This document shows positions 28,704-63,296 of a stretch of DNA of 64,000 nt, in pieces. The stretch spans positions 5,642,001-5,706,000 of the forward strand of contig NZ_AP022610.1 in the NCBI RefSeq assembly GCF_010729665.1. Direction: 5' to 3'. The DNA is from Mycolicibacterium madagascariense. GTDB taxonomy: Bacteria; Actinomycetota; Actinomycetes; Mycobacteriales; Mycobacteriaceae. Within the stretch, counting starts at the first letter, position 1. Each line of letters begins with the position of its first letter. The notes below the pieces were generated by a model that saw only the letters and a list, made by a program, of their open reading frames with translations, was not told the DNA's origin and did no database searches. Both the position numbers and the translations under genes were made by a program.

Positions 28704-30788
<2,085 letters not shown>

Positions 30789-37388: not shown

Positions 37389-37532
37389 GTGGCCAAGGGC
37401 AAGCGGACATTTCAGCCGAACAACCGGCGCCGGGCTCGCGTGCACGGCTTCCGGTTGCGGATGCGCACCCGCGCCGGCCGCGCCATCGTGTCGGGTCGGC
37501 GCAGCAAGGGCCGTCGCTCGCTCACTGCATGA
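37389..37532 (+). CDS. rpmH: 50S ribosomal protein L34
   Basis: 47 residues, [20 protein letters not shown]..., very basic. The GTG at 37389 follows GAGGAGA by 6 nt; an upstream in-frame ATG adds a tail not found in L34. It is a structural protein of the large ribosomal subunit. rnpA follows after 32 bp. Confidence 0.97.
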
Positions 37533-37564
37533 TCCCGTGTGGGTCGTGAGCGGGGTGTAGGAGA

Positions 37565-37921: not shown

Positions 37922-37931
37922 CGCGCCGCGG

Positions 37932-39345: not shown

Positions 39346-39403
39346 CTTTCACCCGATCGAGCTCGGGTCCCTGATGGCTGAGACAGCAAGGAAGTGAACG
39401 AAC

Positions 39404-39931: not shown

Positions 39932-39986
39932 CGTCTCTAGTTACAACGATGTAGTTCGTGTGGCCGGTGGCGTCGGAGTCGGAGGA

Positions 39987-40002
39987 TGTTTCACGTGAAA
40001 CA
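39987..40002. promoter_or_regulatory. parS: parS site 1
   Basis: TGTTTCACGTGAAACA, a perfect match to the ParB-binding parS 16-mer. It overlaps the 5' end of rsmG. ParB loads here and spreads for segregation. Confidence 0.95.
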
Positions 40003-41728: not shown

Positions 41729-42705
41729 CGCCGCCTCCCAAGCGAACCGGCCTCGGACGTGGATTGGCGTCCCTGATCCCGACCGGCCCCAGCGACAGCG
41801 AGCTGAGCCCGGCGATGGGCGCGGCCGCGGCCGACGTGATGTACGGCAGCGCGCCGACCGCCACGGTCGAGCCCGTCGATGACGTGGGTGCGGTGTACCG
41901 CGAGATCGATCCGTCGCTGATCGAACCCAACCCGAAGCAGCCGCGCCAGGTGTTCGACGGTGACGCCCTCGCCGAACTGGTGCACTCGATCCGTGAGTTC
42001 GGACTGATGCAGCCGATCGTCGTGCGGGCGCTGAAGCCGGCCGACGGCGGTCCTCGGTACCAACTGGTGATGGGGGAGCGGCGCTGGCGCGCGGCCCAGG
42101 AGGCCGGTCTCGCCGCCATCCCGGCCATCGTGCGCGAGACCGCCGACGACAGCATGCTGCGGGACGCGCTGCTGGAGAACATCCATCGCGCACAGTTGAA
42201 CCCGTTGGAAGAGGCGGCGGCGTATCAACAGCTGCTCGACGAATTCGGCGTCACCCACGACGAGCTCGCGGTGCGAATCGGTCGGTCGCGCCCGGTGATC
42301 AGCAACATGATTCGGCTGCTGCGGCTGCCGATCGCGGTGCAGCGCCGGGTGGCGGCGGGCGTCTTGTCCGCCGGCCACGCCCGGGCGTTGCTCGCCCTCG
42401 AGGGTGGTGCGGAGAAGCAGGAGGAGTTGGCCGCCCGCATCGTCGCCGAGGGCCTTTCGGTTCGGGCGACGGAGGAGGCGGTGACGCTGGCGAACCGGGA
42501 TGGCGTCCCTGACGCCCCACCGGCGCCGCGGCGCAAGCCGATCCAGATGCCGGGGCTGCAGGACGTTGCTGAGAAGCTGTCGTCGGCGTTCGATACCAGG
42601 GTCACCGTGAGTCTAGGCAAACGCAAGGGCAAGATCGTCGTGGAGTTCGGCTCGGTCGACGACCTTCAGCGCATAGTCGACCTAATGAACGCGTCGGAGG
42701 CATGA
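41725..42705 (+). CDS. parB: Chromosome partitioning protein ParB
   Basis: 326 residues. The N-terminal tail [11 protein letters not shown] recruits ParA. The CTP-binding region contains [10 protein letters not shown] and [12 protein letters not shown], with [14 protein letters not shown]. The helix-turn-helix follows ([24 protein letters not shown]), then a C-terminal dimerisation domain. ParB binds parS and slides as a CTP clamp. ATGA overlap with parA. Confidence 0.97.
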
Positions 42706-42776
42706 CCGGTCACACGGCGTAATTACGTCACTGTGACACCAGCCCGCCGTCGTCGGCCCTCGAAGGAGCTAAACCC

Positions 42777-42875
42777 TTGCGCAGCAACGTGATTCGCATG
42801 TCTCCGGACTCGGAGCCAGCACGCCGTGCCGTGACCCTGCGTCGGCGGCCGGCACGAGCGGACTGGGCGGTCTAG
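42777..42875 (+). CDS. Candidate 32-residue leader ORF before the Rv3916c homologue
   Basis: A TTG start 8-9 nt after AAGGAG opens a frame with the product MRSNVIRMSPDSEPARRAVT... ending ADWAV, very basic. Its TAG overlaps the GTG of the next gene (TAGTG), a layout that allows translational coupling. It may be a real microprotein, a leader peptide, or the true N-terminal region of the neighbour after a frame error. No known family. Confidence 0.4.
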   Translation: MRSNVIRMSPDSEPARRAVTLRRRPARADWAV

Positions 42876-43624
42876 TGTCCGCCCGCATCACTCCGCTGCG
42901 ACTCGAAGCCTTCGAGCAGTTGCCCAAGCACGCTCGGCGCTGTGTCTTCTGGGAGGTCGACCCGGCCACCCTGCAGCGCGGAGATCACCTCGCCGACCCG
43001 GAGTTCGAAAAGGAAGCCTGGCTCTCGATGGTGATGCTCGAGTGGGGTTCCTGCGGACAGCTCGCCGTCCCATGCGAACCCGAGGAGGCCGACTTCACCG
43101 CATCGGCGTCCAGTGGCGACGACCCGTGTCTGGGCTACGCGTTCTATGCGCCGCCGCGCGCGGTGCCACGAGCGGGCCTCTTCCCGACCGGACCCGTGAG
43201 TGCCGACGCCGTCTTGTTGACGACGGTGGGCGTCGAGTCGGGGGAGGACGGCGACGGGCTCACCCGGGCTTTGATGGCTGCGGTCGTCGGGGACCTGGTG
43301 CGACGAGGCGTCCGCGCCCTCGAGTCCTACGGCAGGACGCCCGACGCAGCGGAACTGTCTGACCCACAACGGGTTTCGCCGGACCTGCGCCCCGCGGTCG
43401 CGGTCCTCGGCGACTGTTCGGTGGAGCAGTGCGTGACCGACGCGGAGTTCCTCGCCGACGTCGGCTTCGAGGTCGTCGCGCCGCATCGGTACTTCCCGCG
43501 GATGCGGCTCGAACTCGAGCAGGGGCTGGGATGGAAGGCCGACGTCGAAGCAGCGCTGGAGCGACTCCTGGTGAGCGCCGAGCTGAAGCAGCCCGTCGGA
43601 GCCGGCGCGAGCCTGCGCGCGTGA
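42875..43624 (+). CDS. GNAT-like acetyltransferase-fold protein (Rv3916c-like)
   Basis: 249 residues from a GTG at 42875: MSARITPLRLEAFEQLPKHARRCVFWEVDP. The middle (ADAVLLTTVGVESGEDGDGLTRALMAAVVGDLVRRGVRALESYG) resembles the GNAT acetyl-CoA-binding fold, and the end (EFLADVGFEVVAPHRYFPRMRLEL) fits a terminal GNAT strand. It is conserved between parB and cwlM. Substrate unknown. The large tandem duplication begins inside this gene, and a truncated copy recurs at 51952. Confidence 0.8.
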   Translation: MSARITPLRLEAFEQLPKHARRCVFWEVDPATLQRGDHLADPEFEKEAWLSMVMLEWGSCGQLAVPCEPEEADFTASASSGDDPCLGYAFYAPPRAVPRAGLFPTGPVSADAVLLTTVGVESGEDGDGLTRALMAAVVGDLVRRGVRALESYGRTPDAAELSDPQRVSPDLRPAVAVLGDCSVEQCVTDAEFLADVGFEVVAPHRYFPRMRLELEQGLGWKADVEAALERLLVSAELKQPVGAGASLRA

Positions 43625-43625
43625 C

Positions 43626-44816
43626 TCAGCTCTGGGCGGCGCGCTGCTGTTCGACCGACCGCTCGTGGGCGAGCAGTTCGGCGAAGGTGAACGTGCCCGT
43701 CGGACGATCGTTCTTGCCCAGCAGATAGAGCCGTTTGACGGCCGCGAGTATGCCCTCGGACAACGCGTCACGCACCTGCCCGGACACCAGCAGATCCCGG
43801 TCGTGCGCATTGGTGATGTAGCCGACGTCGATCTGCACGGTGGGCATGCGCGTCAGGCGCAGCAGATCCCACGTGCGGCCGTGCGTGCGGCAGTCGCGTA
43901 ATCCCGTGCGCGCCACCAACTCTCGCTGCACGAAGTCCGCGAGGTTGCGGCCGATGGTCGACACCGAGCCGTGCGAATTGCCGAAGTGGAACGATGCGAC
44001 GCCGTTGGCGGGGGAGCCGGGCAGGGCGGCGCAGCGCAGGCTGATCATCAGATCGGCGCCCACGGTGTTCGCCGTCGCGGCGCGCTCGGCGTCGGAGGGA
44101 CTGCGACCGACAGGCCGGGACAGGAAGGTCTCCATGCCGATCGCCGTCATCCGGCCTTCGAGGCGACTCGCGAGGTCCCACAGGATGTCGGCTTCGCTGA
44201 TGGGTCCGTCGGGACCGTTCATGATGGGCCCGTGGTCGTCGCCACCGCGGCCCGGATCGATGATGATGCGCTTGCCCGACAGCCGCGGCCCGGAGCGGCG
44301 GACCAACTCCTCGCGGATCGCGTGCAGCGAGCCACCCGTCACGCGGGAGCCGAGGAAGTACAGCGAGCGCAGCGTCTCCGGACCGCAGATGCCGTCCGGG
44401 TACAAGCCGTACTCGCGCTGATAGGACATCAGACCGTTGTGGGTCTGCAAACCGAAGTGGCCGTCGACGAGGCCGGTGTAGAACCCGAGGTCCTGCAACC
44501 GGGCCTGCAGCGTCGCGACGTCGTCGCCGTACATCGGCGCGCCGAACTGGTGCGCGAGTGTCCGTGCCCCCAGCCGGTAGGACGCCTCCTTCAGCGCGCG
44601 GTACGTGGCCTCTCCGACCACGCCGTCGACCAGCAACCCCCGGTGCTGCTGGAAGGCGCGGACCGCGTGATCCAGGTCGTCGTCGAAGGCATCGAAGGCC
44701 ACGTGCTTGCCCGTGGTGAGGTCCGCGTCGGAGTTGTCGAGCAGCCCCAACGCCGCCAATGCCGCCCGAATCTCGGCCACGGGGATTCCCCGATCGCCGC
44801 GGCGCAGACTAGACAT
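43626..44816 (-). CDS. cwlM: CwlM, catalytically degenerate amidase that activates MurA (copy 1)
   Basis: 396 residues, intact in this copy. Two N-terminal peptidoglycan-binding domains (residues 1-150; [24 protein letters not shown] and [28 protein letters not shown]) are followed by an amidase_3 domain. The first zinc ligand is lost: IDPGRGG stands where active amidases have IDPGHGG. In mycobacteria CwlM, phosphorylated by PknB, stimulates MurA, the first step of peptidoglycan synthesis. It converges on the GNAT gene one base away. A second, frameshifted copy is at 52390. Confidence 0.93.
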
Positions 44817-44900
44817 GAACAGAATTGTCGCAGACAGAACCGGTAATTCTGAAACCTCCAGGCCAGTCGGGAAACCACGGCTGCCGTTGCCGGAGGCCGA

Positions 44901-45234
44901 TCAGACGACGTCGGACAGCTCGCGCAGCAGCGGCCTTGCCCTTCGTGCCGACGATGCGCTTGACCGGCTGACCATCCTTGAACAGGATCAACGTCGGTAT
45001 CGACACCACCTGGAAGTCGCGGGCGGTGCCGGGGTTGGCGTCGACGTCCATCTTCGCGACGGTGAGTGCGCCAGCCTTCTCGTTGGCAATCTCCTCCAGC
45101 ACCGGGGCGATCATCTTGCAGGGACCGCACCAGGTGGCCCAGAAGTCCACCAGCACGGGAGTGCTGCTGGACAGGACGTCGCTGGAGAACGAATCGTCGG
45201 TGACGGCGACGGTCGCGCTGGTGGTTTCACTCAT
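44901..45234 (-). CDS. trxA: Thioredoxin (copy 1; C-terminal frameshift)
   Basis: The ATG at 45234 begins [16 protein letters not shown]. The active site WCGPCK lies near residue 37, with the cis-Pro in [11 protein letters not shown]. As read, the frame slips after GTKGKAA; in another frame the family ending LLRELSDVV appears and stops at 44901. The same slip is in copy 2. Thioredoxin reduces protein disulfides with electrons from the neighbouring TrxB. 17 bp separate it from trxB. Confidence 0.88.
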
Positions 45235-45250
45235 GTCGGGCTCCTCGGGG

Positions 45251-46221
45251 TTAGGCGTCGGTGGCGTTGGTGGGGTTCAGCTCGGGGTCTTCGGTGTCGG
45301 CGAGCCAGCGCTCGGCGTCGATCGCCGCGGAACACCCGCTGCCCGCGGCGGTGATGGCCTGGCGGTACGTGTGGTCGACCAGGTCGCCGCAGGCGAAGAC
45401 GCCGTCGACCGAGGTGCTGGTGGTGCGGCCCTTGACGGCGACGTACCCGTCGTCGTCCAAGTCGACCTTGCCCGCGACGAGGCTCGACCGGGGATCGTGA
45501 CCGATGGCGACGAACACGCCCGTGACGGCGAGCTTCGACTCCTCACCGGTGACGGTGTCGCGCAGGCGCACGCCCGTGACCTTGGCTCGCCCTCCACCTC
45601 GGTGACCGCGGTGTTCAGCAGGAACGTGATCTTCGGGTTGGCCTTGGCGCGTTCGAGCATGATCTTCGACGCGCGGAACTCGTCGCGGCGGTGGATGAGC
45701 GTCACACTGCGGGCGAACCGGGTCAGGAAGGTGGCCTCCTCCATCGCGGAGTCGCCACCGCCGATCACGGCGATGTCCTGATCGCGGAAGAAGAATCCGT
45801 CACACGTGGCACACGTGCTGACGCCGGTGCCGATGCGCTCCATCTCGCCGGGAACGCCGAGCTGACGGGCGGCCGCGCCCATGGCCAGGATGACCGCGCG
45901 TGCCCGGAACGTCTCGTCACCGACGGTCACCGTCTTGACGGGGCCGTCGAGCGAGACGTCGTCGACGTCCTCCATGCGCAGGTCGGCGCCGAACCGCAGC
46001 GCCTGCTCACGCATCTGCTCCATCAGTTCGGGGCCGGTGATGCCGTCCTTGAAACCCGGGTAGTTCTCCACCTCGGTGGTCGTCATGAGGGCGCCGCCGA
46101 ATTGCACGCCCTCGAACACCAGCGGATGCAGCTGGGCACGCGCGGCGTACACGGCCGCCGTGTAACCAGCTGGGCCGGAACCGATGATGATCAGGTCGTG
46201 GACGGTGTTCGGTGAAGTCAT
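45251..46221 (-). CDS. trxB: Thioredoxin reductase (copy 1; frameshifted)
   Basis: The ATG at 46221 begins [27 protein letters not shown] (FAD site). The redox site is [10 protein letters not shown], the NADPH site [12 protein letters not shown], and the C-terminal FAD motif [23 protein letters not shown]. One missing base near 45590 breaks the frame after TEVEGE; copy 2 has the identical lesion. The composite length is about 323 residues, normal for the family. It reduces thioredoxin with NADPH. A GAAAGGCGGAA ribosome site precedes it. Confidence 0.9.
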
Positions 46222-46291
46222 TTCCGCCTTTCTGGGTACGCCTATAACACCAGCGTAAGCCCGGCTGTTCCGCGACGGCGCCTCGGACGCG

Positions 46292-46594
46292 TCACCGGCG
46301 GCCCCAGCGGCGCCACCGCCGGCGGCCCGGTGGCGGACACGAGCGCAGGGCGCGCTCGACGCGCGCGGTGACGTCCGGCGGGACGGCGTCGGCGGTCTCG
46401 GCGTCCGCGGCCAGGGCGGCCAGTTGCTGCGGCACCCGGTCCAGCGCGGCGAGGCGGTCGGCGACGTGTGGATCGGCAGCGGCACGGCTGCGCAGGCGGG
46501 CCGCGGTGCCCTCGTCGAGCAGACCGTCCCGCAGCGCGGACAGCAGTTCCCACGGGACCCGATCGCCGTCGTGATCGTCTGCCACGCTGTCCAC
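46292..46594 (-). CDS. rsmA: Anti-sigma-M-like protein RsmA, short form (copy 1)
   Basis: 100 residues: [47 protein letters not shown] resembles the N-terminal sigma-binding part of Rv3912, followed by a basic end [11 protein letters not shown]. tuberculosis RsmA is about 254 residues with a membrane helix and external domain; here none is seen, so it is a short form or has lost its C-terminal part. It lies between sigM and trxB, with the small secreted gene between it and sigM. Copy 2 differs by a 2-base loss. Confidence 0.65.
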
Positions 46595-46657
46595 CGAACG
46601 CGTCTCCTGCCGGGTCGAGCCGTCGCGCGTCAGTACACCATTGCGCTGCCCGTATCG

Positions 46658-46684
46658 GGAATTCCGCGGCTCGCCCGTTCGTTG
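46658..46684 (+). promoter_or_regulatory. Possible ECF-sigma promoter of the small secreted gene
   Basis: GGAAT (46658-46662), 17 nt, then CGTTG (46680-46684) resembles ECF promoters of the GGAAC-N16/17-CGT type. It faces the gene starting at 46751, in the divergent gap shared with rsmA. The -35 box has one mismatch to the SigM/SigE-like consensus. Confidence 0.3.
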
Positions 46685-46750
46685 GCTGAGGGGTAGCTGA
46701 TAAGGCCCTCGGCCACCTTGACATCTCGCCGAACACGAACGAAGGCCCTC

Positions 46751-47061
46751 ATGCGCAACATCCGTCGACTCCTCGTCACCGGCGCCTTCGCCGCCATGGC
46801 GAGTTCAGGTCTGATCGCGTTCGGAGCCGCCACCACGCCTGACTCCAGTCCCGTGGCGTGCGACCAGAACATCGTGCCGTACGACCCGTACCACCAGACG
46901 TGTGGCATTCCGAACCCGATCCCCGCCGTTCCCGGCGCCTCGCCGGGCGCGGGCACCATCATCGCGTGCCGCAACATCCCGGCTGCCTGTCGCAGGCGGT
47001 CAACGGGCCGCAGCTCGTCGCCGTGCCGCGCACCGACACCACGGTGCGGCAGAGTCGCTAG
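46751..47061 (+). CDS. Small secreted four-cysteine protein (copy 1; frameshifted)
   Basis: The ATG at 46751 follows GAAGG by 5 nt. The first 27 residues ([27 protein letters not shown]) form a signal peptide. In this copy a G is missing after ACATCCC near 46980, so the last third is out of frame; copy 2 at 55512 shows the whole 103-residue product. Its stop overlaps the sigM stop by three bases on the opposite strand. Confidence 0.65.
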
Positions 47062-47626
47062 CGGGCCGTCGCGACGCCGTCGAAGGACGCCAGCGACTGG
47101 GCCAGCTGGCCCGGGCCCGCGAGCATCGACTCTTGACCGTGCCCTCGGGAATCCCGAGCAGGCGGGCGGTCTCCGCGATCGAGTAGCCCTGCATGTCGAC
47201 CGCCACCACGACCGCGCGTTGATCGACGGGCAGCCGCAGCAGGGCGCGCTCGACGACGATCGCGGTGTCGACGCGCGCAGTCGGGTCCCCGATCCGGCAG
47301 TCGTCGTCCCCCAGCGGGAGCGCGGCGTGAGTCTTGTTGCGCCGCAAGCGGTCCAGACAACAGTTGACGACGATGCGGTACAGCCAGCTGCTCACCGACG
47401 CGTCGTGGCGGAAGGTCGGCGCCTTGCGGTGGGCGGCGAGCATCGCCTCCTGCAGGGCATCCGCGGCGTCCTCGGGATGGCGGCTGGTCACCTTCGCCAG
47501 CCGGTAGAGCTGCCGCTGGTGGCGGCCGAACAACTCCGCGAAGGCATGTCGATCCCCGGCGACGTGCGCGGCGAGCAACTCCGCATCGGTGCGGTCCCGA
47601 CCGTCGTGCGACGCGAAAGTCCCCAT
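47058..47626 (-). CDS. sigM: ECF sigma factor SigM (copy 1; frameshift near 3' end)
   Basis: From the ATG at 47626: MGTFASHDGRDRTDAELLAAHVAGDRHAFAELFGRHQRQLYRLA (region 2.1), SSWLYRIVVNCCLDRLRR (region 2.4) and VVVAVDMQGYSIAETARLLGIPEGTVKSRCSRARA (region 4). One base is missing near 47110, so the last 17 residues ([16 protein letters not shown] in copy 2) are out of frame. In M. tuberculosis SigM controls Esx genes and PPE genes and is held by RsmA. Here RsmA is divergent in position from its usual adjacency because the secreted gene intervenes. Confidence 0.88.
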
Positions 47627-47684
47627 GCCCGAACAGTAATGAACGCGCCACCCCTGCCCCGACACTTGTTGTGGGGCGCCTGAC

Positions 47685-50600
47685 TCAGGAAGCGGCCTTC
47701 AGCGTGATCTCGGAGAGGGCGCTGACGCTCTTGCCGTTGACCGACCCCAGCGTGGTGATCCACACCAGCAGGTTGGAGACCGGCGTCGGGTTGTTGATCG
47801 TGATGGTGTTCGTGCCCGGTTTCATCGGCGTCGGGGGTGTCAGCTCGGTGGTCTCGTCGAGCGTCGCCGGCGTCGGTGACTGTGCCGAGCGAAGTTGAAT
47901 CGACGTGCCGGTGCTGTTGAGGTTCAACGTCACCGACCCGATGGCCGTCGGCTGCGGCAGCTGCAGGACCAACCCGACCCCGTTCTTGAAGTTCGGGAAC
48001 GGCACGGCGTCGCTGTAGATGTCGGTGGACCAGCTCGTCGCGGGATTGCCGTCGATCGCGTTGGCCGCGTCCGCGGGATTGTCGGCCTCACCGCCGGGCG
48101 AAGACCGTTGCGCGAACGGGTTTCACGATCGCCGTGCTCGGCGCACTGGCGCCGGTGCTGCTGCTCGTCGGTGCGTTGAGCCCCAGCTGGTCCTTGTCCA
48201 GCGGACCGCCGACGTCACTGAACACGCCCCGCAGCACCGTCGCCAGCACGACGAGGGCGACGACGAGGATGGCACCCGCCACCGCGGCGCCGATCAGGAC
48301 GCCCTTGCGGCGCTTGGCCTTGGCCTCGGGGTCGTCGTCGGCGGCGTAGCGCGCACGGGGCGCCTCGGGCTGGTCGATCGGCGCGATCAACTCCGTGCGG
48401 TCGGCGACGGCGGTGGCTTGCTGCAGCAGGTTGAGCAACGTGGGCGCCGACCTGATGCCGCCGTTCTCCTGCACGGCCCGCACGGCCGCGGCCGAGATCT
48501 GGAACGGGATGGCGCGGTCCATGCTGCGCGGCTCCACCGGCTCGCCCGCGGGATCCCGATCGGCGGCCGCCATGCCGCTGCGCACGCCGGACTCCGGCAG
48601 GGGCCAGCGGTTGACCAGCAGCGCGTAGAGCGCCGCTCCGATGCCGCGAATGTCGTCCTCGGGCGTGGCGGTGGGCAGCGTCGCCGGGAAGGCGAGCGCG
48701 ACGTCACCCTCGATGCTGACGCGGATCCTGCCCGGGTGGTCGATCGACAGCGCGACCCCCGCGCGGTGGGCGGCCTCCGCGGCGGCGGCCAGCGACTGGA
48801 CCGCCCTGGCACCGCCGATCGCCGACGGCGCGGTCTCGGCCACCTCGGCCAGCGACCCGCCGCGAATCCACTCCGAGACCACCAGGCCGCCGGAGCCGGT
48901 GCGGGCGACGTCGAGCACGCGAGCCACGCCGGTCGAGTTGACCGAACTCAAACGCATTGTGCGCGAGGATCTCGGTCAGTTCCTCGTCGGGAAGCACGGC
49001 GTCGGGATCGATGAAGGTCAGAGCGACCTGACGGTCGAGCACCGTGTCCATCGCATGCCAGAACTGCAGGTGCGGAGGCCCGCCGTGAAACACCAGGAGG
49101 CGGTAGCGCCCGCCGGCGATGGTGGCGCCGGGAATGAGGTGGACCTCGTCGTCGGCCGTGGCGGCCTCGATCGCCGGTTCCCCCGGCACGGCAAACGCCG
49201 TCGGTTCGCGGGTGGGGTCGCCGGCGTAGTCGGCGGAGGCCGTCCCGACGGCGGCAGATGAGACTCCGCCGGCACGTCGGGTTGGAAGTCGTCGACGCTC
49301 TGTCGCGGGATGCGGGTGGTCGCGCCGCTCGCCTCGGTGCGGAATCGCCCGCGGGGTCGTCGGTCACCGCTGGTCCTTTCCGAAGCCCGGCACCGGCGAC
49401 GGTCGCCGGAGGCCCGCCCTGCCACGCCGGAGGAATTTGACGCGACGGTAACGGACGGAAATTGCTCTGATCAGAGTACGTGAGGGGCATACCGCGGCGA
49501 GGTGGGTCGGGCACCCGACCCCGGGGACGGGGTTCGCTCGGAACGGCTCGCCCGCGTCCGAGCCGGCGCCGGACCGCCGCGGCGGCGGCGAGCGCGTCGG
49601 GCACCTTGGCGGTCAGCAGCACCGTCGCGATGATCGGCGCCATGATGAGGCCGAGCACCAGCAGCCGCAGGATCGACCCGGCGCCGCCATGGTGCTCGGT
49701 GAGCGTCCCGAGGCCCAGCAGTCGGTCGACGACGTGCGCGACCAGGCCCGCGAGCAACGACCCCGCCACGGTGACGAGGATGGTCCGCACCACGTCGAGG
49801 CTGATCATTCGTCCGCCCGGCGGTTTGAGATTGGCCCTCAGCATGACGTGGCCGACGACGGCACCGGCCAGGAAGCCGAGCCCGTTGGCGAACCCGAGAT
49901 AACCGGCGACGAGTTCGGGATCGTCGGTGAGATGCGGCGCGGCGAGCGAGGCGATGACCTTGACCGCGGTGATCACGACGATGAGCACGATGGGGGTCCA
50001 CGGCTGTTCCCTGGCATAGAAGACCCGCGTCTGCAGCAGCAGCATCGAATACGGCAGCAGGGTGAACGCCGACAGCGTGAGCGCCATCCCGAGGTAGCCG
50101 GCGTCCACCTGGCCGAAGTTCCCGTACGCGAACAGCGCACTGCCGATCGCCGGGCCCGCGACGGTCATGAACGCCACGACCGGGATGAGCGTCAGCAGCG
50201 TCAGGCGGGTCGCGAACGACAGGTCGGCGAGCACCGCGGGCTGATCGTCGGCCGCGGCGTTGCGCGAGAGCCGCGGCATCACCACCGTCAGCACCGTCAC
50301 GCCGATCATGCCGAACGGGAGTTGGAGCACGAGCCACGCGTAGTTGTAGATGGCCGGGCCCGAAGCCGCTGCGTGACTGGCGATTTGGTTGCCCACGATG
50401 AGGCCGGCCTGGCTGATCAAGACGTAGAGCACCATGGCGGCGGCCATCCCGCCGAACTTCTTGATCCGGTCGTCGAGGCCCCACAGCGGGCGCATGCTGA
50501 TCCGCTCGCGGCGTACGGCGACGAACACCATCGCGGTCTGGGCCACCACGCCGAGGGTCGTGCCGATGCCCAGGACCAACAGCTTGGCGGTGCCCATCGC

Positions 50601-51260
50601 GACGGGGTTCAGCGACAGTTCGCCGGGCACGACGACGAAGACGCCGAGGATCGCCAGGCCCACCACGTTGTTCAGCACCGGCGCCCACGCCGGCGGCCCA
50701 AAGACGTTGCGCGTGTTGAGGATTGCCATGAACACCGACGACAGGCCGTAGAAGATGATCTGCGGCAGCAGCAGGTAGGCGAACGCCACGGTCAGCGATC
50801 GGTCGACCTTCGGATCGCCGCCGAGCATCAGTCGGACGAGCAACGGCGCGGCGGCCACCGAGACCACCGTCGCCACCACCAGCAGTGCGGTCGTCAGCGT
50901 CAGCAGGCGGCGTACGAACGCCGTGCCCCCGTCGGCGTCGTCGCGCTCCGCGCGGGCCAGCACGGGTACGAAGATCGCGGTGAACGTCGCCTCGAGCACC
51001 AGCGCGGCGATCAGGTTGGGCAGCTGGTTGGACACCGAGAAGGCGCTCAGCAGCGGTCCGCCGAGGATCGTGGCCAGCAGGAGGATGCGGAGGAAGCCGG
51101 TGATGCGGCTAATCAACGTCGCGAGCGCCATGCCCCACGACCGCGAGACGACGGCCGAGTCGGTCAGTTCGGGGGCACCGGCGCGGCGGCGCGGCGCTGC
51201 GCCCTGCGGGATCCGCTGCGGTGCGCGCGGCGGCACCCTGGGCGGCCGGACGGCATTCAC
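47685..51260 (-). CDS. murJ: Lipid II flippase MurJ (MviN) with pseudokinase domain (copy 1; several frameshifts)
   Basis: From the GTG at 51260 (GTGA overlap with the Rv3909 stop) about 1190 codons, close to Rv3910. Residues 40-560 are the MurJ membrane domain (ALATLISRITGFLRILLLATILG...). Then come a disordered linker, a pseudokinase (GATIAGGRYRLLVFHG...ALTFIDPDA, without HRD or DFG motifs), a membrane helix (GVLIGAAVAGAILVVALVVLATVL) and an external beta domain ending SALSEITLKAAS. Frame breaks lie near 49343, 49240, 48965 and 48107. PknB phosphorylates the pseudokinase to recruit FhaA. The breaks differ from those in copy 2. Confidence 0.9.
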
Positions 51261-51951
51261 AGGGGGCCGTCCTCGTGGGCCAGCGCGACGTCCAACGGGT
51301 CCGGCCTGCGCTCACCGTCGCGCCGCGACGGGCGGTCGAGGTCGGCGCGGTCGGGTTGGCCTCGGAACCGATGCCACAGCCGGCGTCCCGCGAGCAGCAC
51401 CAGCACCGCCCCGGCGGACAGCGTGATGAAGAACAGCACCTTGCCGTAGGCGTTCGAGTGCACCGACAGCCGCACCGGTTCGCCAAGGGGCAGACCGTCG
51501 GCGGTCTGGAGGGCGACGTCGACGGCCACGCGCTGGGTGAAGTGCACCTCGATGGGCACGCGCAGCGGCCGGGAGGCAGTTCGATCTCGCCCATGTTCGT
51601 CACGGTCATCCCCGGCGGGGCGTCGACGTCGAGGCGCACCCGGATGGGCACGGGCAGATCGTTGCGCAGGGCCAGCGGCAGCGGACTGCGTTCGGTCGCC
51701 AGGGTAGGAGCCGCCGGGGTTGACGATCGTGACGGCGTGCAGCAGGTCCTCGACCGTGGTGCCGACGACGCCGACCCGCTGCCCGCCCAGGCCGTTGCGG
51801 GCATCGGGGGCGACCGACTGACTCAGCGCCCGCAGCATGTCCTCCCGCAGCGGCGCGGTGTACTGCGGCCCGGTCAGGCCGGTGCGCGGGTCGGTGGTCA
51901 GCGCCCCGGTCAGTCCCCACAGCCGAGCGGTGACGTTCGAGATGTCCGACG
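51257..51951 (-). pseudogene. Truncated Rv3909/DUF6049 gene (copy 1)
   Basis: Only the C-terminal 230 or so codons remain ([17 protein letters not shown]... to LAHEDGPL); the duplication junction removes the rest. Two further frame breaks are visible, a 7-base loss near 51566 and a 2-base loss near 51708, relative to the full gene at 60015-62401. Confidence 0.88.
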
Positions 51952-52388
51952 ACCGGACCCGTGAGTGCCGACGCCGTCTTGTTGACGACGGTGGGCGTCG
52001 AGTCGGGGGAGGACGGCGACGGGCTCACCCGGGCTTTGATGGCTGCGGTCGTCGGGGACCTGGTGCGACGAGGCGTCCGCGCCCTCGAGTCCTACGGCAG
52101 GACGCCCGACGCAGCGGAACTGTCTGACCCACAACGGGTTTCGCCGGACCTGCGCCCGCGGTCGCGGTCCTCGGCGACTGTTCGGTGGAGCAGTGCGTGA
52201 CCGACGCGGAGTTCCTCGCCGACGTCGGCTTCGAGGTCGTCGCGCCGCATCGGTACTTCCCGCGGATGCGGCTCGAACTCGAGCAGGGGCTGGGATGGAA
52301 GGCCGACGTCGAAGCAGCGCTGGAGCGACTCCTGGTGAGCGCCGAGCTGAAGCAGCCCGTCGGAGCCGGCGCGAGCCTGCGCGCGTGA
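51952..52388 (+). pseudogene. 5'-truncated GNAT (Rv3916c-like) gene (copy 2)
   Basis: The sequence enters at SADAVLLTTVGV, lacking the first 104 or so residues and any promoter of its own, and ends at 52388. One C is missing near 52153, which breaks the frame after SPDLRP. The intact gene is at 42875-43624. Confidence 0.88.
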
Positions 52389-52389
52389 C

Positions 52390-53582
52390 TCAGCTCTGGG
52401 CGGCGCGCTGCTGTTCGACCGACCGCTTCGTGGGCGAGCAGTTCGGCGAAGGTGAACGTGCCCGTCGGACGATCGTTCTTGCCCAGCAGATAGAGCCGTT
52501 TGACGGCCGCGAGTATGCCCTCGGACAACGCGTCACGCACCTGCCCGGACACCAGCAGATCCCGGTCGTGCGCATTGGTGATGTAGCCGACGTCGATCTG
52601 CACGGTGGGCATGCGCGTCAGGCGCAGCAGATCCCACGTGCGGCCGTGCGTGCGGCAGTCGCGTAATCCCGTGCGCGCCACCAACTCTCGCTGCACGAAG
52701 TCCGCGAGGTTGCGGCCGATGGTCGACACCGAGCCGTGCGAATTGCCGAAGTGGAACGATGCGACGCCGTTGGCGGGGAGCCGGGCAGGCGGCGCAGCGC
52801 AGGCTGATCATCAGATCGGCGCCCACGGTGTTCGCCGTCGCGGCGCGCTCGGCGTCGGAGGGACTGCGACCGACAGGCCGGGACAGGAAGGTCTCCATGC
52901 CGATCGCCGTCATCCGGCCTTCGAGGCGACTCGCGAGGTCCCACAGGATGTCGGCTTCGCTGATGGGTCCGTCGGGACCGTTCATGATGGGCCCGTGGTC
53001 GTCGCCACCGCGGCCCGGATCGATGATGATGCGCTTGCCCGACAGCCGCGGCCCGGAGCGGCGGACCAACTCCTCCTCGCGGATCGCGTGCAGCGAGCCA
53101 CCCGTCACGCGGGAGCCGAGGAAGTACAGCGAGCGCAGCGTCTCCGGACCGCAGATGCCGTCCGGGTACAAGCCGTACTCGCGCTGATAGGACATCAGAC
53201 CGTTGTGGGTCTGCAAACCGAAGTGGCCGTCGACGAGGCCGGTGTAGAACCCGAGGTCCTGCAACCGGGCCTGCAGCGTCGCGACGTCGTCGCCGTACAT
53301 CGGCGCGCCGAACTGGTGCGCGAGTGTCCGTGCCCCCAGCCGGTAGGACGCCTCCTTCAGCGCGCGGTACGTGGCCTCTCCGACCACGCCGTCGACCAGC
53401 AACCCCCGGTGCTGCTGGAAGGCGCGGACCGCGTGATCCAGGTCGTCGTCGAAGGCATCGAAGGCCACGTGCTTGCCCGTGGTGAGGTCCGCGTCGGAGT
53501 TGTCGAGCAGCCCCAACGCCGCCAATGCCGCCCGAATCTCGGCCACGGGGATTCCCCGATCGCCGCGGCGCAGACTAGACAT
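52390..53582 (-). CDS. cwlM: CwlM (copy 2; frameshifted as read)
   Basis: Starts at 53582 and is identical to copy 1 through both peptidoglycan-binding domains. It has one extra codon (EEL for EL) near 53072. Two single-base losses at 52778-52791 and one extra T near 52427 break the frame, so the amidase domain is split. If the indels are errors, this is a full second cwlM; if real, the copy is dead. Confidence 0.8.
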
Positions 53583-53666
53583 GAACAGAATTGTCGCAGA
53601 CAGAACCGGTAATTCTGAAACCTCCAGGCCAGTCGGGAAACCACGGCTGCCGTTGCCGGAGGCCGA

Positions 53667-54001
53667 TCAGAACGACGTCGGACAGCTCGCGCAGCAGCGG
53701 CCTTGCCCTTCGTGCCGACGATGCGCTTGACCGGCTGACCATCCTTGAACAGGATCAACGTCGGTATCGACACCACCTGGAAGTCGCGGGCGGTGCCGGG
53801 GTTGGCGTCGACGTCCATCTTCGCGACGGTGAGTGCGCCAGCCTTCTCGTTGGCAATCTCCTCCAGCACCGGGGCGATCATCTTGCAGGGACCGCACCAG
53901 GTGGCCCAGAAGTCCACCAGCACGGGAGTGCTGCTGGACAGGACGTCGCTGGAGAACGAATCGTCGGTGACGGCGACGGTCGCGCTGGTGGTTTCACTCA
54001 T
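53667..54001 (-). CDS. trxA: Thioredoxin (copy 2; C-terminal frameshift)
   Basis: Same as copy 1, with WCGPCK intact. It shares the slip after GTKGKAA and has one additional A at the stop position near 53670, which removes the TGA seen in copy 1. Confidence 0.82.
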
Positions 54002-54017
54002 GTCGGGCTCCTCGGGG

Positions 54018-54983
<966 letters not shown>

Positions 54984-55053
54984 TTCCGCCTTTCTGGGTA
55001 CGCCTATAACACCAGCGTAAGCCCGGCTGTTCCGCGACGGCGCCTCGGACGCG

Positions 55054-55355
55054 TCACCGGCGGCCCCAGCGGCGCCACCGCCGGCGGCCCGGTGGCGGAC
55101 CGAGCGCAGGGCGCGCTCGACGCGCGCGGTGACGTCCGGCGGGACGGCGTCGGCGGTCTCGGCGTCCGCGGCCAGGGCGGCCAGTTGCTGCGGCACCCGG
55201 TCCAGCGCGGCGAGGCGGTCGGCGACGTGTGGATCGGCAGCGGCACGGCTGCGCAGGCGGGCCGCGGTGCCCTCGTCGAGCAGACCGTCCCGCAGCGCGG
55301 ACAGCAGTTCCCACGGGACCCGATCGCCGTCGTGATCGTCTGCCACGCTGTCCAC
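55054..55355 (-). CDS. rsmA: Anti-sigma-M-like RsmA (copy 2; frame runs on into trxB)
   Basis: The same first 84 residues as copy 1. A 2-base difference (GGACCGAG against GGACACGAG) changes the frame after RVERALRS, and the altered frame has no stop before the trxB start, giving an apparent RsmA-TrxB fusion. I treat it as an indel effect. Confidence 0.55.
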
Positions 55356-55511
55356 CGAACGCGTCTCCTGCCGGGTCGAGCCGTCGCGCGTCAGTACACC
55401 ATTGCGCTGCCCGTATCGGGAATTCCGCGGCTCGCCCGTTCGTTGGCTGAGGGGTAGCTGATAAGGCCCTCGGCCACCTTGACATCTCGCCGAACACGAA
55501 CGAAGGCCCTC

Positions 55512-55823
55512 ATGCGCAACATCCGTCGACTCCTCGTCACCGGCGCCTTCGCCGCCATGGCGAGTTCAGGTCTGATCGCGTTCGGAGCCGCCACCACGCC
55601 TGACTCCAGTCCCGTGGCGTGCGACCAGAACATCGTGCCGTACGACCCGTACCACCAGACGTGTGGCATTCCGAACCCGATCCCCGCCGTTCCCGGCGCC
55701 TCGCCGGGCGCGGGCACCATCATCGCGTGCCGCAACATCCCGGGCTGCCTGTCGCAGGCGGTCAACGGGCCGCAGCTCGTCGCCGTGCCGCGCACCGACA
55801 CCACGGTGCGGCAGAGTCGCTAG
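55512..55823 (+). CDS. Small secreted four-cysteine protein (copy 2; intact)
   Basis: 103 residues. A signal peptide of about 27 residues is followed by a mature part with cysteines at 37, 51, 73 and 78, in contexts [24 protein letters not shown], and no further membrane segment. Two disulfides are possible. It is Pro/Gly-rich and ends [12 protein letters not shown]. No family is recognised. It lies between rsmA and sigM, so envelope-stress control by SigM is plausible. The stop overlaps the sigM stop tail to tail. Confidence 0.7.
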
Positions 55824-56388
55824 CGGGCCGTCGCGACGCCGTCGAAGGACGCCAGCGACTGGGCCAGCTTGGCCCGGGCCCGCGAGCATCGACTCTTGAC
55901 CGTGCCCTCGGGAATCCCGAGCAGGCGGGCGGTCTCCGCGATCGAGTAGCCCTGCATGTCGACCGCCACCACGACCGCGCGTTGATCGACGGGCAGCCGC
56001 AGCAGGGCGCGCTCGACGACGATCGCGGTGTCGACGCGCGCAGTCGGGTCCCCGATCCGGCAGTCGTCGTCCCCCAGCGGGAGCGCGGCGTGAGTCTTGT
56101 TGCGCCGCAAGCGGTCCAGACAACAGTTGACGACGATGCGGTACAGCCAGCTGCTCACCGACGCGTCGTGGCGGAAGGTCGGCGCCTTGCGTGGGCGGCG
56201 AGCATCGCCTCCTGCAGGGCATCCGCGGCGTCCTCGGGATGGCGGCTGGTCACCTTCGCCAGCCGGTAGAGCTGCCGCTGGTGGCGGCCGAACAACTCCG
56301 CGAAGGCATGTCGATCCCCGGCGACGTGCGCGGCGAGCAACTCCGCATCGGTGCGGTCCCGACCGTCGTGCGACGCGAAAGTCCCCAT
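55820..56388 (-). CDS. sigM: ECF sigma factor SigM (copy 2; internal frameshift)
   Basis: Starts at 56388. A missing G near 56190 (CCTTGCGTGGG) breaks the frame within region 2 after EAMLAAH. The C-terminal end is intact here, ending [17 protein letters not shown]. Joining copy 1 region 2 to copy 2 region 4 gives a full 188-residue protein. Confidence 0.82.
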
Positions 56389-56446
56389 GCCCGAACAGTA
56401 ATGAACGCGCCACCCCTGCCCCGACACTTGTTGTGGGGCGCCTGAC

Positions 56447-59400
56447 TCAGGAAGCGGCCTTCAGCGTGATCTCGGAGAGGGCGCTGACGCTCTTGCCGTT
56501 GACCGACCCCAGCGTGGTGATCCACACCAGCAGGTTGGAGACCGGCGTCGGGTTGTTGATCGTGATGGTGTTCGTGCCCGGTTTCATCGGCGTCGGGGGT
56601 GTCAGCTCGGTGGTCTCGTCGAGCGTCGCCGGCGTCGGTGACTGTGCCGAGCGAAGTTGAATCGACGTGCCGGTGCTGTTGAGGTTCAACGTCACCGACC
56701 CGATGGCCGTCGGCTGCGGCAGCTGCAGGACCAACCCGACCCCGTTCTTGAAGTTCGGGAACGGCACGGCGTCGCTGTAGATGTCGGTGGACCAGCTCGT
56801 CGCGGGATTGCCGTCGATCGCGTTGGCCGCGTCCGCGGGATTGTCGGCCTCACCGCCGGGCGAGACCGTTGCGCGAACGGGTTTCACGATCGCCGTGCTC
56901 GGCGCACTGGCGCCGGTGCTGCTGCTCGTCGGTGCGTTGAGCCCCAGCTGGTCCTTGTCCAGCGGACCGCCGACGTCACTGAACACGCCCCCGCAGCACC
57001 GTCGCCAGCACGACGAGGGCGACGACGAGGATGGCACCCGCCACCGCGGCGCCGATCAGGACGCCCTTGCGGCGCTTGGCCTTGGCCTCGGGGTCGTCGT
57101 CGGCGGCGTAGCGCGCACGGGGGCGCCTCGGGCTGGTCGATCGGCGCGATCAACTCCGTGCGGTCGGCGACGGCGGTGGCTTGCTGCAGCAGGTTGAGCA
57201 ACGTGGGCGCCGACCTGATGCCGCCGTTCTCCTGCACGGCCCGCACGGCCGCGGCCGAGATCTGGAACGGGATGGCGCGGTCCATGCTGCGCGGCTCCAC
57301 CGGCTCGCCCGCGGGATCCCGATCGGCGGCCGCCATGCCGCTGCGCACGCCGGACTCCGGCAGGGGCCAGCGGTTGACCAGCAGCGCGTAGAGCGCCGCT
57401 CCGATGCCGCGAATGTCGTCCTCGGGCGTGGCGGTGGGCAGCGTCGCCGGGAAGGCGAGCGCGACGTCACCCTCGATGCTGACGCGGATCCTGCCCGGGT
57501 GGTCGATCGACAGCGCGACCCCCGCGCGGTGGGCGGCCTCCGCGGCGGCGGCCAGCGACTGGACCGCCCTGGCACCGCCGATCGCCGACGGCGCGGTCTC
57601 GGCCACCTCGGCCAGCGACCCGCCGCGAATCCACTCCGAGACCACCAGGCCGCCGGAGCCGGTGCGGGCGACGTCGAGCACGCGAGCCACGCCGGTCGAG
57701 TTGACCGAACTCAAACGCATTGTGCGCGAGAGGATCTCGGTCAGTTCCTCGTCGGGAAGCACGGCGTCGGGATCGATGAAGGTCAGAGCGACCTGACGGT
57801 CGAGCACCGTGTCCATCGCATGCCAGAACTGCAGGTGCGGAGGCCCGCCGTGAAACACCAGGAGGCGGTAGCGCCCGCCGGCGATGGTGGCGCCGGGAAT
57901 GAGGTGGACCTCGTCGTCGGCCGTGGCGGCCTCGATCGCCGGTTCCCCCGGCACGGCAAACGCCGTCGGTTCGCGGGTGGGGTCGCCGGCGTAGTCGGCG
58001 GGAGGCCGTCCCGACGGCGGCAGATGAGACTCCGCCGGCACGTCGGGTTGGAAGTCGTCGACGCTCTGTCGCGGGATGCGGGTGGTCGCGCCGCTCGCCT
58101 CGGGTGCGGAATCGCCCGCGGGGTCGTCGGTCACCGCTGGTCCTTTCCGAAGCCCGGCACCGGCGACGGTCGCCGGAGGCCCGCCCTGCCACGCCGGAGG
58201 AATTTGACGCGACGGTAACGGACGGAAATTGCTCTGATCAGAGTACGTGAGGGGCATACCGCGGCGAGGTGGGTCGGGCACCCGACCCGGGACGGGTTCG
58301 CTCGGAACGGCTCGCCCGCGTCCGAGCCGGCGCCGGACCGCCGCGGCGGCGGCGAGCGCGTCGGGCACCTTGGCGGTCAGCAGCACCGTCGCGATGATCG
58401 GCGCCATGATGAGGCCGAGCACCAGCAGCCGCAGGATCGACCCGGCGCCGCCATGGTGCTCGGTGAGCGTCCAGGCCCAGCAGTCGGTCGACGACGTGCG
58501 CGACCAGGCCCGCGAGCAACGACCCGCCACGGTGACGAGGATGGTCCGCACCACGTCGAGGCTGATCATTCGTCCGCCCGGCGGTTTGAGATTGGCCCTC
58601 AGCATGACGTGGCCGACGACGGCACCGGCCAGGAAGCCGAGCCCGTTGGCGAACCCGAGATAACCGGCGACGAGTTCGGGATCGTCGGTGAGATGCGGCG
58701 CGGCGAGCGAGGCGATGACCTTGACCGCGGTGATCACGACGATGAGCACGATGGGGGTCCACGGCTGTTCCCTGGCATAGAAGACCCGCGTCTGCAGCAG
58801 CAGCATCGAATACGGCAGCAGGGTGAACGCCGACAGCGTGAGCGCCATCCCGAGGTAGCCGGCGTCCACCTGGCCGAAGTTCCCGTACGCGAACAGCGCA
58901 CTGCCGATCGCCGGGCCCGCGACGGTCATGAACGCCACGACCGGGATGAGCGTCAGCAGCGTCAGGCGGGTCGCGAACGACAGGTCGGCGAGCACCGCGG
59001 GCTGATCGTCGGCCGCGGCGTTGCGCGAGAGCCGCGGCATCACCACCGTCAGCACCGTCACGCCGATCATGCCGAACGGGAGTTGGAGCACGAGCCACGC
59101 GTAGTTGTAGATGGCCGGGCCCGAAGCCGCTGCGTGACTGGCGATTTGGTTGCCCACGATGAGGCCGGCCTGGCTGATCAAGACGTAGAGCACCATGGCG
59201 GCGGCCATCCCGCCGAACTTCTTGATCCGGTCGTCGAGGCCCCACAGCGGGCGCATGCTGATCCGCTCGCGGCGTACGGCGACGAACACCATCGCGGTCT
59301 GGGCCACCACGCCGAGGGTCGTGCCGATGCCCAGGACCAACAGCTTGGCGGTGCCCATCGCGACGGGGTTCAGCGACAGTTCGCCGGGCACGACGACGAA

Positions 59401-60018
59401 GACGCCGAGGATCGCCAGGCCCACCACGTTGTTCAGCACCGGCGCCCGCCGGCGGCCCAAAGACGTTGCGCGTGTTGAGGATTGCCATGAACACCGACGA
59501 CAGGCCGTAGAAGATGATCTGCGGCAGCAGCAGGTAGGCGAACGCCACGGTCAGCGATCGGTCGACCTTCGGATCGCCGCCGAGCATCAGTCGGACGAGC
59601 AACGGCGCGGCGGCCACCGAGACCACCGTCGCCACCACCAGCAGTGCGGTCGTCAGCGTCAGCAGGCGGCGTACGAACGCCGTGCCCCCGTCGGCGTCGT
59701 CGCGCTCCGCGCGGGCCAGCACGGGTACGAAGATCGCGGTGAACGTCGCCTCGAGCACCAGCGCGGCGATCAGGTTGGGCAGCTGGTTGGACACCGAGAA
59801 GGCGCTCAGCAGCGGTCCGCCGAGGATCGTGGCCAGCAGGAGGATGCGGAGGAAGCCGGTGATGCGGCTAATCAACGTCGCGAGCGCCATGCCCACGACC
59901 GCGAGACGACGGCCGAGTCGGTCAGTTCGGGGGCACCGGCGCGGCGGCGCGGCGCTGCGCCCTGCGGGATCCGCTGCGGTGCGCGCGGCGGCACCCTGGG
60001 CGGCCGGACGGCATTCAC
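56447..60018 (-). CDS. murJ: MurJ (MviN) with pseudokinase (copy 2; several frameshifts)
   Basis: Start GTG at 60018, overlapping the stop of the full Rv3909 homologue (GTGA). The same domain order as copy 1. Frame breaks lie near 59895, 59448, 58521-58474, 58288, 57121 and 56992; the linker and pseudokinase that are broken in copy 1 read cleanly here, so the two copies together define the whole protein. Confidence 0.87.
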
Positions 60019-62401
60019 AGGGGGCCGTCCTCGTGGGCCAGCGCGACGTCCAACGGGTCCGGCCTGCGCTCACCGTCGCGCCGCGACGGGCGGTCGAGGT
60101 CGGCGCGGTCGGGTTGGCCTCGGAACCGATGCCACAGCCGGCGTCCCGCGAGCAGCACCAGCACCGCCCCGGCGGACAGCGTGATGAAGAACAGCACCTT
60201 GCCGTAGGCGTTCGAGTGCACCGACAGCCGCACCGGTTCGCCAAGGGCAGACCGTCGGCGGTCTGGAGGGCGACGTCGACGGCCACGCGCTGGGTGAAGT
60301 GCACCTCGATGGGCACGCGCAGCGGCAGGTAGCCGGGAGGCAGTTCGATCTCGCCCATGTTCGTCACGGTCATCCCCGGCGGGGCGTCGACGTCGAGGCG
60401 CACCCGGATGGGCACGGGCAGATCGTTGCGCAGGGCCAGCGGCAGCGGACTGCGTTCGGTCGCCAGGGTGTAGGAGCCGCCGGGGTTGACGATCGTGACG
60501 GCGTGCAGCAGGTCCTCGACCGTGGTGCCGACGACGCCGACCCGCTGCCCGCCCAGGCCGTTGCGGGCATCGGGGGCGACCGACTGACTCAGCGCCCGCA
60601 GCATGTCCTCCCGCAGCGGCGCGGTGTACTGCGGCCCGGTCAGGCCGGTGCGCGGGTCGGTGGTCAGCGCCCCGGTCAGTCCCCACAGCCGAGCGGTGAC
60701 GTTCGAGATGTCCGACGTCACGTCCGCGTCGATGTGGGACCGCGGGTTGCCGAGCGTCTCTGCCGGTAGCGGAGCCACCTCCGACGGCGGGATCGCGCTG
60801 CTCTCGGCGAGTACAGCCGACAGCGGCCTTGGTACGGCCAGCCCGGACCGGATCGCCGAGGCCAGCGTCGAGAGCACGGCTTGGGCCTCGTCGGGGGGCA
60901 GGTTCCAGGCCAGCGGCGGGATGAGCAGCTCGGTGCGGGGCTCGGTCTGCGGCCGCAGCGCACGCCACAGCACGGCGGCCAGGGCGTCTTCGCGGCGCGC
61001 GATGGAGGAGTCGTGGGACAGCGGAACGTCGAGGGAGCCATCGAGATAGGACGGGGTCACCGGCGTGGTGCCCGCACCGGCCAGCGCCGCGCCGACCGCG
61101 GGGTCGAAGGGCGCGGCGACCACGTTGGCGTCGTAGCGACGCGGGGCGAGGTCGATGGCCGCGGGGTCGTCCGCCGTCGAGTCCTGGGCGACGGACTCAC
61201 CGGCGGCGATCGCCACCGTCGGACCATGCGAGGACAGCAGCTTGACCGCGGGCCCGGTCGGGGCCGTCGCCGACCAGGGTGGCGCCGCGGGTCGACGCCA
61301 CGCCGAGGATCTGGTCGACGATGTCGGCGCCCTCGGTCGTCGCGGTCGTCGAGCCCGGGTCCCCGACCCTGGCGAGGGCTCCCAGATCGGCCTGCGCGTA
61401 GACCGTCGGGGCCACGCACAGCCGCTGGGCGAGCGTCCGCAACCGGCCCAGCCAGTTGACCGCCGCGTCCTGCCCCGTCCCGGCGTGCGTCGGTGAGGCC
61501 AGGCCGCCGGCGGGATCGTCGTTGACGACGTAGCCCGCCGTCATGGCGTTGACCGTGACCAACAGGTCGGGATCGACGGCCAGGCACAGGGCGGCGCGCG
61601 TCTCCCCGGCCGGGTCGACGGCGGGACTCGTCGCGAAGTCGGCGGCGGTCAGCAGCGTGTCGAGACGCCCGCCAGGGGCCAGCGACGCGGCGAGCTCGTC
61701 GTCGACGAGCCGGACGGGGGTCGTGCCGCCGGGAACGCCCGCGGCGAGGCGGGGCTTGTCGGCGAGCGGCCACAGCATCGTCACGTGGACGGGTCGCGAC
61801 GTGTCGGGCGGGACGACGGCGGTCACCGCGTCGTCGGTGCCGGCGGGCGTGCTCGGGTCGGCGGGCACGCCGAGGACGGGCAGCAGGAACCGGGCGTCGT
61901 CGAGGCGGGCCGGCGCGCCGTAGTCCGGGTGCCGTTGACGTTGACCAGCGCCGGGTAGATCCCCGGCTGGTCGATGCGCAGCGAGGAGTCCGCCGAGCGC
62001 ACCGGATAGGACAGCGTGAAGGGCATGTGCTGGCCCTGCGCCAGCTCCGGTGCGACCGTGACGAAGTTCGCGACGGCCTCGTATTGGTCGACGCCGCCGG
62101 TCAATTCGGTGCGCAGCCCGGTCGACGACGTGACGGCGGGGGCGTGTTCGAGGCGCACCATGATGTCGTGCACGGGCCGGTCGCCGACGTTGGTCACCGT
62201 CCCCGACACGGTCACGGTGGGCTCGGTCGTCGTCGTGACGGTCTCTGGGGTGATGGAGTCGATGTGCAATTGCAGGAAGGGTCGTTCGCCGGGCTCCCCG
62301 GCGGCGGCGCGCGGCGCCACCCCGGGCAGGACGAGCAGCATCAGCAGCGCGAGGACGGTCAGCAGGCGCGACCCGGCGACACCCGCCGCGGCGCGCGTCA
62401 T
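60015..62401 (-). CDS. DUF6049 secreted membrane-anchored protein (Rv3909-like), full copy, frameshifted
   Basis: About 795 residues. Signal peptide ([23 protein letters not shown]), an N-terminal beta domain ([32 protein letters not shown]), a large central domain, and a C-terminal membrane helix ([18 protein letters not shown]) with a charged cytoplasmic tail. Breaks near 61925, 61253 and 60246 interrupt the frame. The ATG at 62401 overlaps the mutT4 stop (ATGA) and its stop overlaps murJ, so it is translated together with the flippase. Function unknown; the fixed link to murJ suggests a role in envelope assembly. Confidence 0.85.
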
Positions 62402-63186
62402 GGGCCTTGGCCGCAGCCGTTCGCCCGCCGGCCGGGTGGCGGTTGCGGGGATTGGTCGGGTCGGCGGTTGCGGGTGTGCGAATGGGTCTGGGGTCGGCGC
62501 CGCGGTGCGCTGTGCGGCAGCGGCGGCAGCGCCTCCGGGCCGTCGGAGTGCAGCTTGTCGATGAGCTCTCCGGCCACCTCGGCGAGCCGGCGTTCGTCGG
62601 CGTAGGCCAGCCGGGCGGGCAGCTCGACCAGCGGCACCCAGGCCACCTCGGTCACCTCGACGTCTTCGTCGGAGAGCTCGCCATCGAGGAATCGCATGAG
62701 GTAATGGTGCACGGTCTTGTGGACGCGGCGACCCTCGGTCACGAACCAGTAGTCGATGCTGCCCAGCGCCGCGAGCACGCTGCCCTGGATGCCGGTCTCC
62801 TCGGCGACCTCTCGGATGGCGGTCTGCTCGGCGGTCTCACCCTGCTCGATGTGTCCCTTCGGCAGCGACCACAGCATGCGTCCGCGCCGATCCACGCGAC
62901 CGATCAGCGCAGCCACCTGGGCGCCCTTCGGGCCGTCGATGCCGTCGATCACGAGTCCGCCCGCGGACGTCTCGTGCACCGTGCGCAGCCGGTCGGGCGC
63001 GCGCCGGCCCTGTCGACCCGATGGGGTCGCCGCGGCGTCGGGACGGTGTCCGGGCGTCGGCCCGGGAAGCGGAGCGGCGGCGGTTCCGGCGGCGGCCGTG
63101 GCGCCTGGCTCGGGGGGACCGGCAGAGCGTCGCCCGCGGCGCCGTCCCCGGCGCCGTCGTGGTTTGGCTCGTTCGCCCTCCGACAC
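62398..63186 (-). CDS. mutT4: Nudix hydrolase MutT4
   Basis: 262 residues from the GTG at 63186 ([20 protein letters not shown]), matching the basic N-terminus of Rv3908; the longer upstream frame is not conserved. After a Pro/Ala-rich linker the Nudix domain starts at [14 protein letters not shown]. The Nudix box begins GHIEQGE and ends REVAEETG. MutT4 hydrolyses damaged nucleotides such as 8-oxo-dGTP or related substrates. It is divergent from pcnA and heads the mutT4-Rv3909-murJ run. Confidence 0.92.
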
Positions 63187-63296
63187 CCAAGCGATAGTAG
63201 CTGCCAGTTGGAATTCGCCCTGGCCGCACTCGCCGTCGTGGTCGGCTTGTCGCCGGGTCGTAATACACCCGAGAGCGCCCACTAGGCTCAACGAAC

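Follow-up and report, generated by a model that had tools for sequence, protein, structure and literature searches.

A direct tandem repeat of an 8.77-kb segment, as written near the replication origin in the assembled genome of Mycolicibacterium madagascariense (GCF_010729665.1), is very probably a false expansion within the untrimmed end overlap of a circular, poorly polished assembly that appears to be of the long-read type. The DNA analysed here, referred to as the window, comprises the 64,000 nucleotides at positions 5642001-5706000 of contig NZ_AP022610.1 (C1; 5,712,088 bp) and stops 6,088 bases short of the last base of that contig. Self-BLAST of the window aligns the two copies of the unit (U1 and U2, Table 1) over 8789 columns at 99.51% identity with 0 mismatches and 28 gap openings, a match far above chance expectation. 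The copies abut, with 2 bases (CG) common to both at the break, and the original prediction of a direct tandem repeat without a spacer is thereby borne out to within these 2 bases. Homology beyond them was found at neither edge of the unit, nor did self-BLAST of the window reveal further repeats at the edges; a duplication generated by recombination of flanking repeats was ruled out on these grounds.

A third copy of the unit (U0), which was invisible when the original prediction was made, lies near the start of C1, where a unit query matches C1:13723-15729. When C1:1-60000 was compared by BLAST with the window extended by C1:5706001-5712088 (window numbering thereby running up to 70088, the last base of C1), C1:1-21692 matched window 30217-51951 and C1:12908-31082 matched window-numbered 51950-70088; past C1:31082 no second copy was found among the stretches compared. 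Near-identity thus covers C1:1-31082 and C1:5672217-5712088 with both terminal bases of the contig included, which is the pattern of an untrimmed circle. Because the matches reach both of these terminal bases, the start and the end of C1 are one chromosomal stretch of about 31 kb that was assembled twice. The unit is present once at the start of C1, between normal flanks, and twice only at the redundant end, and the U1/U2 junction is missing from the contig start (BLAST of the contig start against the window). A single chromosome allows just one arrangement at this place and, since its second assembled form contains a single unit, an assembly error is the most likely explanation.

Table 1. Features of the window and of the redundant end of contig C1 (positions in window numbering)
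Feature	Position	Strand	Length	Remarks and basis
Redundant contig end, also assembled at C1 start	30217..64000			Extends beyond the window by 6,088 bases, up to the end of C1; BLAST
Left arm of overlap	30217..43184			C1:1-12907; holds dnaA, parA, parB; BLAST
DnaA	35336-37132			Left arm, outside repeat unit
RsmG/ParA frame	39986-41728			Left arm; family match
ParB	41725-42705			Left arm; family match
Rv3916c-like gene	42875..43624	+		Whole, single frame, residues 1-246 of 249; across left edge of U1
Unit copy 1 (U1)	43185..51951		8767 bp	Self-BLAST and edge comparison
cwlM-like amidase frame, U1	43626..44816	-		One piece; in U2 two pieces (52403-53582)
Thioredoxin frame, U1	44809..45234	-		TIGR01068 above cut-off
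trxB stretch, U1	45302..46626	-		Two frame pieces
sigM frame, U1	47000..47665	-		NF007225 above cut-off; in U2 two pieces (55829-56388)
murJ, U1	47688..51263	-		Three frame pieces, TIGR01695 above cut-off for the longest; in U2 (56450-60021) five pieces
U1/U2 junction	51949..51952			2 shared bases; partial Rv3909-like gene meets partial Rv3916c-like gene
Unit copy 2 (U2)	51950..60717		8768 bp	Self-BLAST and edge comparison
Right arm of overlap	60718..64000			C1:21693 onward, to C1:31082 beyond the window; BLAST

The second contig of the assembly (C2; 228,287 bp) overlaps itself in the same manner, positions 2-21784 matching 206513-228287 at 99.7% with 49 gap openings and 5 mismatches (BLAST). 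This untrimmed overlap amounts to about 21.8 kb, and the true length of C2 would be about 206.5 kb (calculated by hand). Since each has an end-to-end overlap, C1 and C2 are both unclosed. Untrimmed end overlaps of circular contigs in long-read assemblies are addressed by Circlator (PMC4699355), and the two contigs resemble such cases in having near-identical termini and, in the overlap of C1, a poor consensus; unlike those cases, the end of C1 contains an extra internal 8.77-kb tandem copy, a feature that the excerpted text of PMC4699355 does not describe for a chromosome. A comparison of C2 with the end stretches of C1 gave no match of at least 500 bp. A 20-kb segment of C2, searched against plasmids, returned one record covering 1% of the query. 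Shorter repeats occur as well. C2 holds three direct copies of about 620 bp at 202237-205171, which are 95-99.5% alike and lie about 1.1-1.2 kb apart. In the window, self-BLAST identified a direct repeat of about 580 bp (8215-8791 and 10686-11259; 84.6% identity) in a stretch of lower GC (0.648, bin 8001-12000), where two long frames that were scanned had no Pfam match; between its two copies sits a near-tandem pair of 85 bp (9765-9849 and 9864-9948; 89.5% identity).

The redundancy of C1 might also be read as genuine, the whole 31-kb stretch including the origin being truly duplicated in the chromosome, in the manner of a large DU1-like duplication and with no wrap-around of the contig. The start and end of C1 are indeed near identical over 31 kb including dnaA, and the DU1 duplication of BCG spans the origin (PMC6615170). 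However, the match sets in at base 1 of the contig and stops at its final base, as expected of a wrap-around but only by chance of a duplication, the same end overlap is seen in C2, and raw errors are found at both contig ends, and a duplication of this size must be considered extremely improbable.

The gene content of the unit had been given as cwlM, trxA, trxB, rsmA, a secreted protein, sigM and murJ. Family matches agree with this list for the cwlM-like amidase, thioredoxin, trxB, sigM and murJ, while rsmA and the secreted protein obtained no confirming family match. Intactness was probed with proteins of a relative (L010), rows below 40% identity being set aside as chance (for the Rv3909-like probe, and two for TrxB). 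In this relative CwlM presents Amidase_3 and PG_binding_1 and the thioredoxin reductase presents Pyr_redox_2; for the window frame of the cwlM-like gene the amidase models fall below their cut-offs, and the broken thioredoxin reductase frame of the window is likewise below cut-off. With the same probes MurJ comes out as 1, 3 and 5 frame pieces in U0, U1 and U2, respectively, and CwlM as 1, 1 and 2; SigM is in one piece in both U0 and U1, the match in U1 being confined to residues 1-173 of 191, and in 2 pieces in U2, and TrxB is broken in all three copies. Neither copy in the window is an intact gene set, and because murJ and trxB are broken in both, and cwlM and sigM in U2, the window does not display two working sets. 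The flanking genes presumably correspond to Rv3916c and Rv3909, the names used in the original prediction. One non-truncated copy of each had been described outside the unit; this holds for the Rv3916c-like gene, which is whole, whereas the Rv3909-like gene beyond the right edge of U2 spans its full length in 4 frame pieces (rows below 40% identity excluded). That U1 and U2 represent two real diverged copies was ruled out, as they differ by gaps, without BLAST mismatches, and each has broken frames.

The copies differ in the way that long-read consensus errors do. An alignment of U0, U1 and U2 contains 35 difference events, in which the odd one out is U2 in 17, U1 in 10 and U0 in 7, with all three different in 1. 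Single-base gaps make up 22 of the 35, all except one of them (21) in a run of at least 2 equal bases, and the remaining 13 involve several bases (counted by hand). Compared with seven relatives, odd indel columns number 10 in U0, 26 in U1 and 27 in U2; over 9.3 kb of the left arm, where the count was made from an exact anchor, there are 39 in the start copy and 7 in the end copy, and the right arm has 10 (start) and 9 (end) over its first 2.6 kb. Frame-breaking indels, defined by a length that is not a multiple of three at columns where the relatives agree, occur 10 times in U0, 14 times in U1 and 19 times in U2, corresponding to 1.21, 1.70 and 2.30 per kb, with 2.70 (start) and 1.52 (end) per kb in the left arm and 1.80 (start) and 0.90 (end) in the right arm. 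The control regions contain none, with 0 in 7246 testable columns for rpoBC and 0 in 3685 for gyrA-gyrB, which lies just beyond the overlap. These two regions took the place of an interior control from C1:2000001, whose conservation proved low in the single relative with which it was compared.

A third measure of error, frame switches backed by at least 2 relatives, which were binned and summed by hand, gave 42 switches in 63.5 covered kb inside the overlap (21 in C1:1-30000 and 21 in window-numbered 30001-69000) and 2 in 12.4 covered kb outside it (one each in C1:33001-45000 and window 24001-30000). Bin C1:30001-33000, which spans the border and has 0 switches in 2.9 kb, was left out of the sums. 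The consensus of the overlap is of lower quality than that of single-copy sequence, though quality does not change abruptly at the border, window 30001-36000 having 0 frame switches and single switches occurring in bins outside the overlap. When errors were profiled at 500 bp, the junction showed no clear peak of the kind that a hidden contig end could leave. The single switch seen outside the overlap at C1:33001-36000, again backed by at least 2 relatives, could be a broken gene, an error or a count artefact.

The end overlaps of C1 and C2, the indel pattern and the broken frames strongly support the reading of the repeat as an assembly error, one of the two possibilities raised in the original prediction; the other, a recent amplification with consequences for the control of peptidoglycan synthesis, gains no independent support, as the same assembly shows the place with one copy and the differences between the copies are of the consensus-error kind. 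The circular chromosome was written as a linear contig, both ends of which cover one and the same 31 kb by the replication origin and were left untrimmed and unclosed. Within the redundant terminal stretch an 8.77-kb piece was very probably entered twice in succession, the likely route being that two overlapping layout or corrected-read pieces were set end to end with their overlap left unmerged. The differences between the copies are very probably residual long-read consensus errors left by polishing, which may have failed here if reads mapping equally well to several places were skipped.

Comparison with relatives provides a further view of the locus. A cwlM search of genome contigs yielded 441 coding matches, and among the best 80 loci of these 441, which were kept, cwlM is matched once in each of the 80 and a direct repeat >800 bp occurs in none; 69 of these loci, with lengths of ≥17 kb, constitute a fair test, the shorter loci a weak one. 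Among the matches listed for 20 other whole genomes (12 from the same genus and 8 from the same order), none crosses the junction by >5 bases. Both halves of the junction are found on one contig in 8 genomes of the genus, and there they lie about 4.4-5.3 kb apart in single-unit order (distances measured by hand). By CwlM, the closest named relatives among the best 80 of 441 include M. hodleri and Mycolicibacterium sp. P1-18. Inheritance of the repeat from an ancestor was ruled out, as it is present in 0 of the 80 loci and 0 of the 20 genomes.

Parts of the evidence run counter to an artefact. Collapse of a tandem repeat is a commoner assembler error than its false creation and, because of this, the single copy at the start of C1 could be the wrong version. 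The lower error count of U0 would also follow if two copies had been collapsed into one with twice the read depth, U1 and U2 agree against U0 in 7 of the 35 difference events, including bases missing from both, the error border is not sharp, and a MAFFT alignment of the copies also contains a few substitution columns (6, of which 4 are odd in U2 and 2 in U0). The main rival explanation is that of a real tandem duplication fixed in the strain, with the start of C1 collapsed to one copy, in favour of which one may cite that collapse is a common assembly error, that U0 has the fewest errors and that U1 and U2 have a few differences from U0 in common. Tandem duplications near the origin do exist in mycobacteria, namely DU1 and the DU1-like duplications of BCG (PMC2448323, PMC6615170). 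However, the same assembly has one copy at the start of C1 between normal flanks, the doubled form is confined to a redundant end that carries raw errors, none of the relatives' loci (best 80 of 441) or the 20 genomes has the repeat, and the unit is without dnaA, unlike the DU1 forms listed in PMC6615170. A duplication fixed in the strain is in our estimation very unlikely.

The BCG systems remain the closest known point of comparison. DU1 of BCG Pasteur is a tandem duplication of 29,668 bp (PMC2448323), and DU1-like forms occur in other BCG strains, the forms listed in PMC6615170 all including dnaA, dnaN and recF; the organisation of the BCG Danish duplication was checked by PCR (PMC6615170). 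In being a direct tandem repeat near a mycobacterial replication origin, the unit in the window is like DU1 and the DU1-like forms as presented in these sources (PMC2448323, PMC6615170). Unlike the forms listed in PMC6615170, it does not contain the origin region (dnaA, dnaN, recF), dnaA lying outside it, is known from assembly alone and is contradicted by the same assembly: the two copies are not present wherever the locus was assembled, a single copy standing at the start of C1, where a collapse is possible. A literature search for mycobacterial tandem duplications as assembly artefacts returned a single paper, which deals with ants.

DU1-like duplications are described in PMC6615170 as varying between stocks of one BCG strain, and a mixed culture, with a majority of cells carrying one copy and a minority two, would account for the single copy at the start of C1 and the pair at its end if the path of the assembler differed at each contig end. 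Such a mixture requires, however, that a rare variant should happen to lie in the redundant 31 kb of a 5.7-Mb contig, and with just 2 bases shared at the junction recombination of flanking repeats is an unlikely origin for it; we judge it highly improbable. Altogether, a real and perhaps unstable duplication of the 8.77-kb cwlM-trx-trxB-sigM-murJ unit by the origin, in all or some cells, formed by 2-base end joining and with the start of C1 collapsed or sampled from the one-copy form, is unlikely, and a false expansion in the untrimmed overlap is the explanation that we favour.

The finding is mainly a caution. About 31 kb of the chromosome and about 22 kb of C2 are present twice in the assembly, and raw indel errors were measured in the overlap of the chromosome; gene numbers, seemingly 'duplicated' essential genes and apparent 'pseudogenes' should not be relied on, either close to the origin or at the C2 ends. 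CwlM and MurJ act in peptidoglycan synthesis and, if the duplication were true, it would represent a natural joint change in the dosage of CwlM and MurJ.
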